A stretch of 36,587 nucleotides of DNA from an uncultured Lachnospiraceae bacterium (GTDB lineage Bacteria; Bacillota; Clostridia; Lachnospirales; Lachnospiraceae). Made by a program: the position numbers and the translations under genes. The notes under the pieces are model-generated. The model made no database searches, was not told the origin of the DNA, and was given only the letters and a program-made list of their open reading frames with translations. The stretch spans positions 1-36,587 of the forward strand of contig CAMVOY010000022.1 in NCBI GenBank assembly GCA_947169235.1, written 5' to 3'. Positions 2,128-16,357 of this stretch are shown piece after piece (positions within the stretch are counted from its first letter, which is position 1; every line of letters begins with the position of its first letter).

Positions 2128-2258
2128 GGAGCAGTATACAATACTTGTACGGGCACGCTTTCGCTTTTTTCTCGTACGTCACGTTGCATGCACGGAAAAT
2201 ACCCGTGCTACGCAACGACGTACGAGACACATCCCGTACAAGTATGTATTTCTGCTCC
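2128..2258 (-). repeat. Structured element, copy A
   Basis: First of three related elements (others at 9685 and 16225). Outer stems: GGAGCAG/CTGCTCC (2128-2134, 2252-2258) and a 13-bp perfect stem (2141-2153 with 2233-2245). Inner stem: about 24 bp, 2171-2195 with 2203-2226. In consensus orientation (minus strand) it carries GGGATGTG, TACGTCGTTGCG, GCAACGTGACGTA and AAGCGAAAGCG (a possible GC-GAAA-GC mini hairpin, 2157-2164). It lies beyond the coaD terminator and upstream of the thl promoter, so it belongs to neither mRNA unless transcribed on its own. Confidence 0.8.
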
Positions 2259-2264
2259 TCATTA

Positions 2265-2291
2265 TTAGTTTTTCGCTCGTCGGGCATCAAC
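2265..2291 (-). repeat. Imperfect copy of the coaD 3' end
   Basis: These 27 bases match the last 27 bases of coaD (2335-2361) at about 21-22 positions, including GTTGATGCCC. They would read VDARRAKN-stop against [12 protein letters not shown] in CoaD. The coaD terminator lies between the two copies. This suggests duplication or replacement of the coaD tail. Confidence 0.5.
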
Positions 2292-2327
2292 AAAAATGTG
2301 CATGCAGCCATTTATGCTACATGCACA
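2291..2327 (-). terminator. Rho-independent terminator of but-coaD
   Basis: On the minus strand a 12-bp stem (2316-2327 with 2297-2308, one G-T pair) closes a 7-base loop and is followed by TTTTTG. It begins 8 bases after the coaD stop. Confidence 0.88.
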
Positions 2328-2334
2328 TACTCTT

Positions 2335-2805
2335 TTATTTTTTTGCTTGGAGGGCATCAACGACTGCGGGCGGGACCATTTTTGATACGTCTGAACCGTA
2401 GTGCGCGACCTCCTTCACGATTGTCGAGCTCAAAAATGCATACTCTAAGCTGGTCGTGAAAAACATAGTATCCACCTCAGGCTCGATGCTGTGATTGGTC
2501 TGAGCGATCTGCATCTCCGTCTCGAAGTCGGTGACGGCGCGCAGACCTCTGATGATAAGGTTTGCGCCGTTTTGCTTGGCGAAGTCGATAGTCAGCCCCT
2601 CAAATGTTTTTACCTTTACATTCGGCAGATGCTTTGTCGTCTCCTCAAGGAGCTTCACCCTCTCCTCCCTTGTAAACAGAGGATTCTTCGCGCTGTTTAC
2701 GAGCACACCGATGATGAGCTCGTCGACCACCTTTGATGCTCGCTCGATGATATCGAGATGTCCGTAGGTTACCGGATCAAAGCTTCCGGGATAAATTGCT
2801 TTCAT
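2335..2805 (-). CDS. coaD: Phosphopantetheine adenylyltransferase
   Basis: 156 residues, the normal length. The N-terminus [19 protein letters not shown] holds the nucleotidyltransferase T/HxGH motif (TYGH), and [11 protein letters not shown] matches the C-terminal SSTxVRE motif. The enzyme transfers AMP from ATP to 4'-phosphopantetheine, the penultimate step of coenzyme A synthesis, in the cytoplasm. Its ATG lies 5 bases after the but stop codon and AGAGGT within the end of but serves as ribosome site, so the two are co-transcribed and probably translationally coupled. Placing CoA synthesis beside a CoA-transferase and butyrate genes is metabolically sensible, although coaD is more often next to rsmD. 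Confidence 0.96.
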
Positions 2806-2810
2806 TCGTT

Positions 2811-14183: not shown

Positions 14184-14221
14184 TTGTCTACTCTCTTTTT
14201 TATAATTGTTTTTGAGCCTTT

Positions 14222-14250
14222 ATTATACTATGAAAAAGTAGAGATTTCAA
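14222..14250 (-). promoter_or_regulatory. Promoter of proB
   Basis: TTGAAA (14245-14250), 17 bases, TATAAT (14222-14227) on the minus strand, giving a leader of about 30 bases before the proB start. No operator-like dyad is seen. Confidence 0.75.
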
Positions 14251-14338
14251 GGCTTTTCTATGCCTGTTTTCTACTCCGGCTTTTCTGCTCCGATACTCTA
14301 AAAAAACATAAATTATCATGACTCGTATAAACCCGCGT

Positions 14339-16141
14339 CTACTGCATCAGTCTCTCGCCTATCCGCTCAGCTACCCGCAGGCCGTCCATGGCTGCAGAAA
14401 GTATACCTCCCGCATAGCCGGCACCCTCACCGCAGGGGTAAAGACCGGGTAGCGATATGCTCTCGAGTGACTCATCATCACGAACGATCCTAACCGGTGA
14501 CGATGTCCTCGATTCCACCCCTAGGATCAGCGTATCATCCGCGTCAAACCCCTGTATCTTTTTCCCGAACTGATCGATCGCCTCACACACAGCGGTGCGA
14601 ATATCCTCAGGTAACGCCGATGCGACATCTGCGTATGTCCACTGCCCTTTCACGGACGGCTGGTTGCTCGAGAGTCCGGAAAAATGCACCCCACCTGAAG
14701 GAGCACTTACACCACTATCATCGCCTGATGTATTCTTTTTTCGACTGAAATCTCCGTATCTTTGAACAGGAATCTTGCCATCCGCAACCTGATACATTTT
14801 TCTCTCAAGACGTCTCTGGTATTCGACTCCGACAAAAACATCCGTATCAAAGCTCCCGACACCGGACTCATCTGTCAAGGTATCATCCCTACCGGTATTT
14901 CCCGGATCAACCGTGACAACTATCGCAGCATTTGCATATCCCGAGTCACGCCTGACATCACTCATTCCATTTACCACGAGATGCCCTACCTCAGACGAAG
15001 CATTCACGACATACCCACCCGGACACATACAAAAAGAGTACACACCCTTTCCATCCGATGTTTTCCCGGTCAGCTTGTAGTACGCTGCCGGTAGATATAA
15101 ATCTGATTGATTCGATAGTCTGTTCTCTTCACCATTTCGGTTATCATCTTCTGCGGATATGATACCATCAACACTCGTAAACCTATCAGCATTCTTTATA
15201 TTACCATACTGCGCGCGGTCGATGTCCTCCTGGCGATGCTGCACTCTCACTCCCACCGCAAAAGGCTTCGGCCTCATCTCGATTCTTTGCTCTTTAAGCT
15301 TCTCAAAAGTATCCCTCGCACTGTGCCCGATCGCCAGCACCAGATGATCGCACGGGATCGTATCGCGGATCTCTCCCTGCTTCACCCAGACACCGCTGAC
15401 CTTGCCGTCCTTTTTCTCGACACCGACATATTTCGTATGGAACAAAAATATCACGCCCTGCTTTTCCATGGCCTTACGCATATTCACTATCACTGATCTG
15501 AGCACATCCGTCCCGATATGTGGCTTTCCGTCATAAAGGATATCCTTGCCTGCGCCAAATCTAACAAAGGTCTCGAGTATAAACCTCTTTGTCCCGTCCT
15601 TATCCTTCACTCCGGAGTTAAGCTTGCCGTCAGAAAAAGTCCCCGCTCCGCCCTCGCCGAAGCATACATTAACTTCCTCATTCAGCTCTCCACTTTCCCA
15701 GAAACGCTCAACTTCACCGACTCTCTCCTCCATCGGTGCACCACGTTCGATAAGCACGGGTTTCAATCCCCTCAAAGAAAGTGCATAAGCGCAAAATAGC
15801 CCCGCAGGCCCACTGCCCACGACAACTATTCTTTCATCATCACGCCCTCTGATCTGTGTCAGTTTCGACTCATACATTATGGGCTTTTTAACCTGTCTTA
15901 AGTTCTTGTTATAATGATTCTTTTTAAGGATAGTTTCTTCGTCATCGGATAAGAATCTTATAGAATAAATATAGAAAATATCCGGCTTGCTTCTCGCATC
16001 CAGACTCCTTTTATATATCTCAAATTTGCGCATCTGCTCCGCTTTAATCTTCAGCTTTTGCGACGCGTATTCACGCAAGTGCTCCTTCTCATCAGCGGGC
16101 ACATCCTGTATATTAATCTTTATCTGACCCAACTCCAGCAT
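14339..16141 (-). CDS. FAD-dependent dehydrogenase of the COG2509 type
   Basis: 600 residues, ATG at 16141 after AAGGA. A small N-terminal domain (1-100) precedes the dinucleotide-binding motif VVVGSGPAGLFCAYAL (GSGPAG at 109-114), then LIERG, CFGEGGAGTFSDGKLNSGVKD, LAIGHSARDTF and the C-terminal LYPCGEGAGYAGGILSAAMDGLRVAE flavin-binding end. This is the pattern of the widespread uncharacterised FAD-dependent proteins of COG2509. The substrate is unknown. Relative to relatives of about 530-560 residues, it carries extra polar segments around 400-490 (rich in S, G, D). Next to it in the same direction lies a second flavoprotein, separated by structured element C. Confidence 0.85.
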   Translation of the reverse strand: MLELGQIKINIQDVPADEKEHLREYASQKLKIKAEQMRKFEIYKRSLDARSKPDIFYIYSIRFLSDDEETILKKNHYNKNLRQVKKPIMYESKLTQIRGRDDERIVVVGSGPAGLFCAYALSLRGLKPVLIERGAPMEERVGEVERFWESGELNEEVNVCFGEGGAGTFSDGKLNSGVKDKDGTKRFILETFVRFGAGKDILYDGKPHIGTDVLRSVIVNMRKAMEKQGVIFLFHTKYVGVEKKDGKVSGVWVKQGEIRDTIPCDHLVLAIGHSARDTFEKLKEQRIEMRPKPFAVGVRVQHRQEDIDRAQYGNIKNADRFTSVDGIISAEDDNRNGEENRLSNQSDLYLPAAYYKLTGKTSDGKGVYSFCMCPGGYVVNASSEVGHLVVNGMSDVRRDSGYANAAIVVTVDPGNTGRDDTLTDESGVGSFDTDVFVGVEYQRRLERKMYQVADGKIPVQRYGDFSRKKNTSGDDSGVSAPSGGVHFSGLSSNQPSVKGQWTYADVASALPEDIRTAVCEAIDQFGKKIQGFDADDTLILGVESRTSSPVRIVRDDESLESISLPGLYPCGEGAGYAGGILSAAMDGLRVAERIGERLMQ

Positions 16142-16224
16142 TTAGATAATTCCTTCTCATTTATTCTTTATTCTTTTTTTCTTTGTCGCAGACACCGTAT
16201 TCTTAATTTCGCACTTGTATCGCA

Positions 16225-16357
16225 GGAATCTGATTACAGCTTTACGGCGAGGGACATGTCGCTTACGTCGTTGCGCAGACACCGTATTATGGTGTCGTGC
16301 AACGTGACGTAAGGGAATAAGCGAAAGCGGTCCCGAGCGTAAACTGTATCAGATTCC
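16225..16357 (+). repeat. Structured element, copy C
   Basis: Third copy, plus-strand orientation, antisense to both flanking flavoprotein genes. Outer stem GGAATCTGAT-TACAG/CTGTA-TCAGATTCC (16225-16239 with 16344-16357), then TTTACG/CGTAAA and GGGAC/GTCCC, inner stem GCTTACGTCGTTGCGCAGAC with GTCGTGCAACGTGACGTAAG, tip GACACC/GGTGTC, then AAGCGAAAGCG (GCGAAAGC at 16321-16328). The 15-mer CGCAGACACCGTATT inside it (16274-16288) also occurs just outside at 16187-16201. Confidence 0.82.

Follow-up and report, generated by a model that had tools for sequence, protein, structure and literature searches.

The window analysed here is the whole 36,587-nucleotide stretch of contig CAMVOY010000022.1 from an uncultured Lachnospiraceae bacterium, in which three hairpins of one family, each about 130–160 nt long and referred to below as rods, lie between long minus-strand open reading frames (ORFs). 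An earlier note, made from the sequence alone, had placed three copies of a structured element in gaps between genes and in mixed orientation; all three are found at these positions and share the blocks given for them, copy 1 running with the direction of the genes and copies 2 and 3 against it. The features are as follows.

2128..2258, minus strand: copy 1, complete hairpin between two ORFs, same direction as the genes; matched by covariance models R1 and R2 at 2123–2261
796..2046 and 2335..2805: neighbours of copy 1, an acetyl-CoA acetyltransferase-like ORF and a coaD-like ORF, respectively (named by eye)
2211..2222, minus strand: core 5' arm of copy 1, TACGTCGTTGCG
2175..2186, minus strand: core 3' arm of copy 1, CAACGTGACGTA, carrying the 2-nt bulge
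2156..2166, minus strand: GNRA mini-hairpin of copy 1, AAGCGAAAGCG
9685..9842, plus strand: copy 2, complete hairpin with a long tip, antisense to both neighbours; R1 and R2 match at 9685–9844
9847..12486, minus strand: alaS-like ORF, the stop of which adjoins copy 2
9727..9738, plus strand: core 5' arm of copy 2
9781..9792, plus strand: core 3' arm of copy 2, carrying the 2-nt bulge
9801..9811, plus strand: GNRA mini-hairpin of copy 2
9751..9769, plus strand: extra tip hairpin of copy 2, GGAAACTC..GAGTTTCC, common to other long-tip copies
16225..16357, plus strand: copy 3, complete hairpin, antisense to both neighbours; R1 and R2 match at 16222–16362
16264..16275, plus strand: core 5' arm of copy 3
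16300..16311, plus strand: core 3' arm of copy 3, carrying the 2-nt bulge
16319..16329, plus strand: GNRA mini-hairpin of copy 3

Within the window, TACGTCGTTGCG and AAGCGAAAGCG each occur three times without mismatch, never outside these copies. The predicted folds are −77 kcal/mol for copy 1 (z = −11.0), −56.1 kcal/mol for the inner 121 nt of copy 2 (9705–9825; z = −8.0) and −71.4 kcal/mol for copy 3 (z = −10.2), with none of 200 shuffles as good in any of the three cases. The statement that the same 2-base bulge recurs in all three copies is correct for its position, which is constant, but not for its sequence, which varies (GT or TG here and CT in other subfamilies).

Searches of the bacterium's own 2.37-Mb genome (G000) bore out the view of the element as dispersed. 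The exact core pattern occurs there at 12 places and the reversed control at none; covariance model R1, built from 13 copies, finds 55–56 matches, and model R2, built from 53 of the R1 matches, finds 59, the three weakest at 45–47 bits. The 86 rods that were collected measure 128–162 nt, and one own-genome match is 82 nt long. R1 has matches in 17 of the 39 genomes of the genus and none in 22; the sister species G001 and G019 carry 61 and 51 matches, respectively, six of the remaining genomes carry 23, 19, 19, 14, 11 and 7, and eight carry 1–4 each. In the taxonomic family, R2 matches 78 of 299 genomes (298 genera, with 1–2 genomes per genus) with at most ten candidates scored per genome, and six of the matching genomes, scored more fully, gave 13 to 110 matches, the highest counts seen being those of G305 (110) and G147 (90). 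Across the class, 10 of 391 genomes match at E ≤ 1e-6, all in Lachnospiraceae, and because these matches are confined to one family the model does not merely score any long hairpin. More than 500 members were counted over 23 genomes, and the family is so far seen in Lachnospiraceae only. The carriers among the exact-pattern matches listed are rumen Eubacterium sp. MAGs, Lachnospiraceae bacterium P6B14, UBA9840 and RUG381; viral contigs searched with the exact core pattern gave no match. Members from other genera keep a core such as ACGYCGGTNCTTAG...GTATTTT...CTTAYGTACCGCTRCGT together with the mini-hairpin.

The element had been matched to no known family, and Rfam likewise gave no hits in the window. 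At E ≤ 5, copy 3 gave nothing beyond two miRNA models, both far below cut-off, and for 18 loci from other genera at E ≤ 10 the models on rods were at chance level, with one 24-bit Clostridiales-1 match (cut-off 48) overlapping the start of one rod. A 40.9-bit Clostridiales-1 match at another locus (L242) sits after a groEL-like gene, outside the rod, and identity with a known Rfam RNA was rejected.

The shape that is kept has three outer helices whose small bulges are fixed, a core with a 2-nt bulge, a 2-bp GNRA mini-hairpin and a U-rich 7-nt tip loop. The covariation, first read from three copies only, holds in an alignment made of 53 of the 59 own-genome copies, in which 94.4% of 2645 cells are paired (64.6% after shuffling), double changes occur in 42 of 51 pairs, and the covariation score is 0.716 compared with 0.178 for shuffled alignments, none of 500 shuffles being as high; the score is at most 0.133 once partners are slid by 1–3 columns. 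A wider alignment takes in other genera as well as less closely related congeners (91 matches, 87 of them distinct); here 90.2% of cells are paired, double changes occur in 49 of 51 pairs and the score is 0.884 (0.195 shuffled); its weak spots are the short helix 5, paired in 57.9%, and one core pair, formed in 5 of 87. The number of pair types, one of five measures, shows no excess over shuffles in either set (81 of 500 shuffles were as high for the own-genome set). Alignments made via R1 and R2 are biased towards their own structure; in the structure-free first alignment by MAFFT, 34 of the 51 predicted pairs already have double changes. The GNRA loop is present in 139 of the 144 aligned copies (51 of 53 in the own genome and 88 of 91 in the wider set), with all four bases at N and a purine, A or G, at position 3 of all 139 GNNA loops, and in 14 copies GT/AC replaces GC/GC in the 2-bp stem. 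The outer stems are the variable part of the rod and its centre is kept; in some genera the stems are much longer, and in several lineages only, CGTCC is seen by eye after the stem. The stem sequence is largely free, while the bulges, the GNRA mini-hairpin and the tip loop persist.

The family has multiplied and moved. In the own genome the unit boundary is the base of the hairpin: in 569 of 616 paralog matches, similarity stops no more than 20 nt from the ends of the hairpin, and so it does in 26 of the 28 such matches with an identity of 80% or more over 120 nt. Six units of about 480–499 bp in G075 are 89–92% identical in unrelated flanks, six copies in G147 have alike rods in unrelated flanks, and alike units in unrelated flanks are found in G327, G144 and G132 as well. 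The units of G075 and G327 are two rods placed head-to-head, that is, with their 5' ends facing each other, and some of those in G147 are one rod within short inverted ends. Close pairs (≤1 kb) are head-to-head in 24 of 28 cases, tandem in four and tail-to-tail in none; head-to-head pairs make up all seven of those in the own genome and 17 of the 21 in other genera, some of the 17 repeating a single unit. Comparison of sister species reveals empty sites, each reflecting either lack of gain or loss, of which one, leuB/ilvD in G001, is clean; no target-site duplication is evident there by eye, and the other sites are too diverged. As in a MITE, terminal inverted repeats are present, the whole unit being an inverted repeat, alongside amplified copies and empty sites.

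An enzyme that mobilizes rods was looked for and not found, and several ideas about how rods arise and spread were rejected. The Y1 transposase domain PF01797 (Y1_Tnp) is absent from the own genome and from all 11 genus genomes with at least three rods, which argues against mobilization by RAYT/Y1; it is present in 10 of the 39 genus genomes, three of which have 1–2 rods. An autonomous transposon finds no support in the four loci read between rods, which hold no transposase: the intervening DNA contains leuB and an ordinary membrane-protein ORF (G000:C64), a deacetylase-like gene (G244 and G512) or short tandem repeats (G049). The genes around rods in 16 loci, and between separated rods, look ordinary, with the exception of an IS110-like ORF beside a weakly matching rod (L064). 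At two sites the outer arm at first seemed likely to be an inverted copy of the target; this reading was dropped, since a deletion in G001 explains the arrangement equally well, other relatives having rods there. Loss of the hairpin nuclease SbcD as a permissive condition was also dropped: the three genus members with the most rods, closely related to one another, give no SbcD match, but among 39 family genomes a match over cut-off is missing from 10 of 21 rod-rich and 4 of 18 rod-less genomes (p = 0.18), and G305 and G147 have SbcD.

Many rods lie at the same place across several species. The ortholog of copy 1 in G001 is 0.986 identical with its paired positions unchanged; the site of copy 2 is occupied by a rod in G019 and by a different hairpin in G001; copy 3 has orthologs in both species, that of G001 showing a double change from G–C to T–A. 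At one site common to G000, G001, G004 and G005 the changes are compensated, in G005 across the whole core, which suggests an exchange of cores between copies. The ortholog set comprises 114 in-place pairs (163 distinct rods from nine species), of which 41 have a rod identity of at least 0.75. In 37 in-place comparisons, which share species and so are not independent, there are 101 double Watson–Crick changes against 80 single changes, the latter divided into 26 G·U, 21 A·C and 33 others (G·U versus A·C, p = 0.56); 42 of the 101 doubles are of transversion type and therefore unreachable through G·U. Neighbouring doubles number 39 where 20.5 are expected, with none of 300 shuffles giving as many. 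In the 25 pairs of at least 0.95 identity, 32 of 796 unpaired sites have changed, and among 1373 base pairs one side has changed in 15 and both sides in six, compared with about 0.04 doubles expected for independent changes by rough arithmetic. The 73 pairs below 0.75 identity, some of which may be wrongly assigned neighbours from rod pairs, hold 757 doubles to Watson–Crick pairs, and G·U exceeds A·C by 114 to 67. The overall substitution pattern suits template switching during replication, with selection retaining the bulges and loops, and gene conversion between copies could account for part of the clustered doubles.

As assigned with a simple ORF caller, 27 of the 53 own-genome copies are antisense to tandem neighbours, 16 are sense, six lie between convergent genes, one lies between divergent genes and three are unclassified. 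Rods are mostly intergenic, often 1–50 nt from a stop codon and sometimes within operon-like pairs such as leuB/ilvD. The mixed orientation, together with the lack of a neighbouring gene shared by the loci that were read, led us to reject a riboswitch or other cis-regulator, which the earlier note had also thought unlikely. A promoter of the rod's own was rejected as well, a crude score showing no promoter-like excess upstream of 52 copies. In 133 of 144 copies it is the sense strand, and not its complement, that gives the better fold, and in the two deep alignments, whose cells are not independent, G·U in Watson–Crick context exceeds A·C by 19 to 8 and by 57 to 26 (together 76 to 34); the GNRA rule and this excess point to the sense strand as the strand that folds. 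Antisense copies keep the shape and, counted on the strand of the rod itself, show 12 G·U against 4 A·C, the result to be expected from folding of that strand as DNA. In DNA too, G·T is favoured over A·C, and 2-bp GNAA mini-hairpins are very stable.

These observations bear on whether rods are a structured RNA family, either trans-acting or a SINE-like mobile RNA, in which the RNA fold is selected and the covariation is ordinary RNA compensation. The purine at position 3 in all 139 GNNA loops, all bases being tolerated at N and GT/AC in the adjoining stem, and the G·U excess, which extends to the diverged ortholog pairs, suit RNA at least as well as DNA, and the better folding of the sense strand is also in keeping with an RNA. 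However, no promoter-like excess lies upstream, more copies are antisense than sense to tandem neighbours and keep their shape nonetheless, hardly any G·U occurs outside fixed G·U columns (19 versus 1905 and 57 versus 2750 Watson–Crick cells), and recent single changes give G·U about as often as A·C. Because of the missing promoter excess, the antisense copies and the lack of a recent G·U preference, the covariation need not stem from selection on RNA. We lean, although not strongly, towards DNA rather than RNA as the folded form, and an RNA family seems a possible but doubtful account. Of the earlier alternative between a structured noncoding RNA and a REP/MITE-like element, the second part stands; the first is left doubtful by the lack of promoter-like excess, the 27 antisense copies among 50 and the roughly equal numbers of recent G·U and A·C changes.

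Our preferred explanation, held tentatively although it comes close to being probable, is that rods are a mobile palindrome of the REP/MITE class, the folded strand of which is recognized by its shape and the pairing of which is kept by template switching. The unit would be one hairpin of about 130–160 nt, single or paired with 5' ends facing; its folded sense strand, most likely single-stranded DNA, would be recognized by a recombinase or a host factor; replication template switching would copy one arm onto the other and so keep the pairing, and use of the element would keep the bulges. Once settled behind a gene, a rod would give the mRNA a strong hairpin whichever way the rod points, and may protect or end transcripts, as proposed for REPs. 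If, instead, such hairpins between cistrons or in 3' untranslated regions were kept by the host to stabilize transcripts or to mark where they are processed, a role suggested for REPs in operons, their mostly intergenic positions close to stop codons, their presence in operon-like pairs and their long conservation in place would be explained, but the GNRA and bulge shape is found on a single strand although copies point either way, copies do not avoid divergent gaps to a significant extent (1 of 50 versus 6 of 70, p = 0.24) and three of the 53 overlap predicted ORFs longer than 200 aa; we regard this as quite improbable. Pure palindrome dynamics, in which a selfish inverted repeat keeps its arms alike by template switching alone and its shape is not recognized, would account for the clustering of double changes, the varied stem sequences and the far longer stems of some genera. 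Template switching alone is expected to erase bulges, however, and would not keep the GNRA loop, the tip loop and the core across the sampled genera, which makes this a very improbable account. A bolder form of the mobile-palindrome explanation, which we consider unlikely as it stands, is a new class of mobile element in which a non-Y1 recombinase reads the shape of one folded DNA strand; for such an enzyme the fixed bulges, the tip loop and the GNRA mini-hairpin would suffice, so that the stem sequence could vary freely and would be renewed by template switching.

Covariation is normally taken as proof that an RNA fold is functional. Rods show extreme covariation, yet have no evident promoter, and recent single G·U and A·C intermediates are about equally rare, making the family a natural test case of how much covariation arm copying at the DNA level can yield, as well as of shape-only recognition of mobile DNA. 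The work also gives a name to a repeat carried by roughly one in four of the genera sampled in the family (78 of 298).

Among the open-access literature records listed, none describes repeats of this kind in Lachnospiraceae, and rods are apparently undescribed, in the sources searched, as mobile palindromes widespread in this family. In the accessible excerpts of PMC3733652, REPs are palindromes of 20–40 bp, with a GTAG or CGTC tag at one end, that lie mostly downstream of coding regions, often as head-to-head dimers, and those of the CGTC type have 8–9 bp stems and no dedicated transposase. Rods resemble these REPs and BIMEs, as far as the excerpts describe them, in being palindromes, in lying mostly after coding regions, in their head-to-head pairs (24 of 28) and perhaps, in some lineages, in the CGTCC after the stem, but differ in their length of mostly 128–162 nt, their multiple bulges, their GNRA mini-hairpin and their covarying stems. 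REPs of the GTAG type pair with a RAYT/Y1 transposase, whereas Y1 is absent from the genus genomes with at least three rods. On size and on the Y1 link, membership of the REPs fails. The bcr1 repeat of Bacillus cereus is described in the accessible parts of PMC2267715 and PMC3446304 as MITE-like, intergenic and 147–167 bp in length; bcr1–bcr18 share with rods an intergenic position, in untranslated regions and operon gaps, and a conserved fold, but are restricted to the B. cereus group, and covariation is not mentioned in those parts. Going by these descriptions, rods may be regarded as related in habit to both REPs and bcr1.

The attC site of integrons is a single folded strand that is recognized by shape through extrahelical bases, with a largely free sequence; it keeps its end boxes and frees its centre. 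Rods, in contrast, keep the centre and free the ends, their outer stems varying where attC has conserved boxes, and their neighbours are ordinary genes, not cassettes. Hairpins maintained by template switching, with multibase compensatory changes that bypass G–U, have been reported in PMC8794818, and the changes in rods are alike in this respect; in the accessible excerpts of that work such hairpins are described for RNA genes, whereas here they belong to a mobile repeat family.

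In the sister species G001, the alaS/apbE-like gap that in the window houses copy 2 contains in its stead a long bulged hairpin (L078:8849-8926, -41.4 kcal/mol), which is unlike the rod and possibly represents another family of this kind. The long-tip rods (window copy 2, at 9751-9769, and those of loci L036, L041, L102 and L103) have in common an additional small hairpin with the sequence GGAAACTC..GAGTTTCC or a near variant of it, and in L105 (1160-1315) a similar hairpin is located in the mini-hairpin and not in the tip, as if this small hairpin were itself mobile.

SbcD (TIGR00619), a hairpin nuclease whose loss might permit rods, was unmatched in the window's own genome (G000), G001 and the other sister species, G019, the three members of the genus that carry the most rods; across the family, the association between its absence and rod abundance was not significant.

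Four rods form a direct tandem array with a period of 164 nt (L298:516-1146, G147:C59), and the same deacetylase-like gene is bracketed by rods in two species of one genus. The rods and neighbouring features are as follows.

L293:1020-1754 and L313:637-1398 (G244 and G512), head-to-head, rods on either side of the deacetylase-like gene
L244:1422-1545, minus strand, weak match to Clostridiales-1 RNA (RF01699), 24 bits
L064:3-1154 (G025), IS110-like transposase ORF, identified by eye

The 3' domain of the Clostridiales-1 RNA matches well and directly adjoins a rod. In L064, a weakly matching rod lies ~350 nt from the transposase ORF. Rod pairs in G327 (L276, L277 and L281) are flanked by GTGCAA..TTGGGGACAG..CCCAAATTGCAC-like repeats, which are similar to the ends of another REP-type element.
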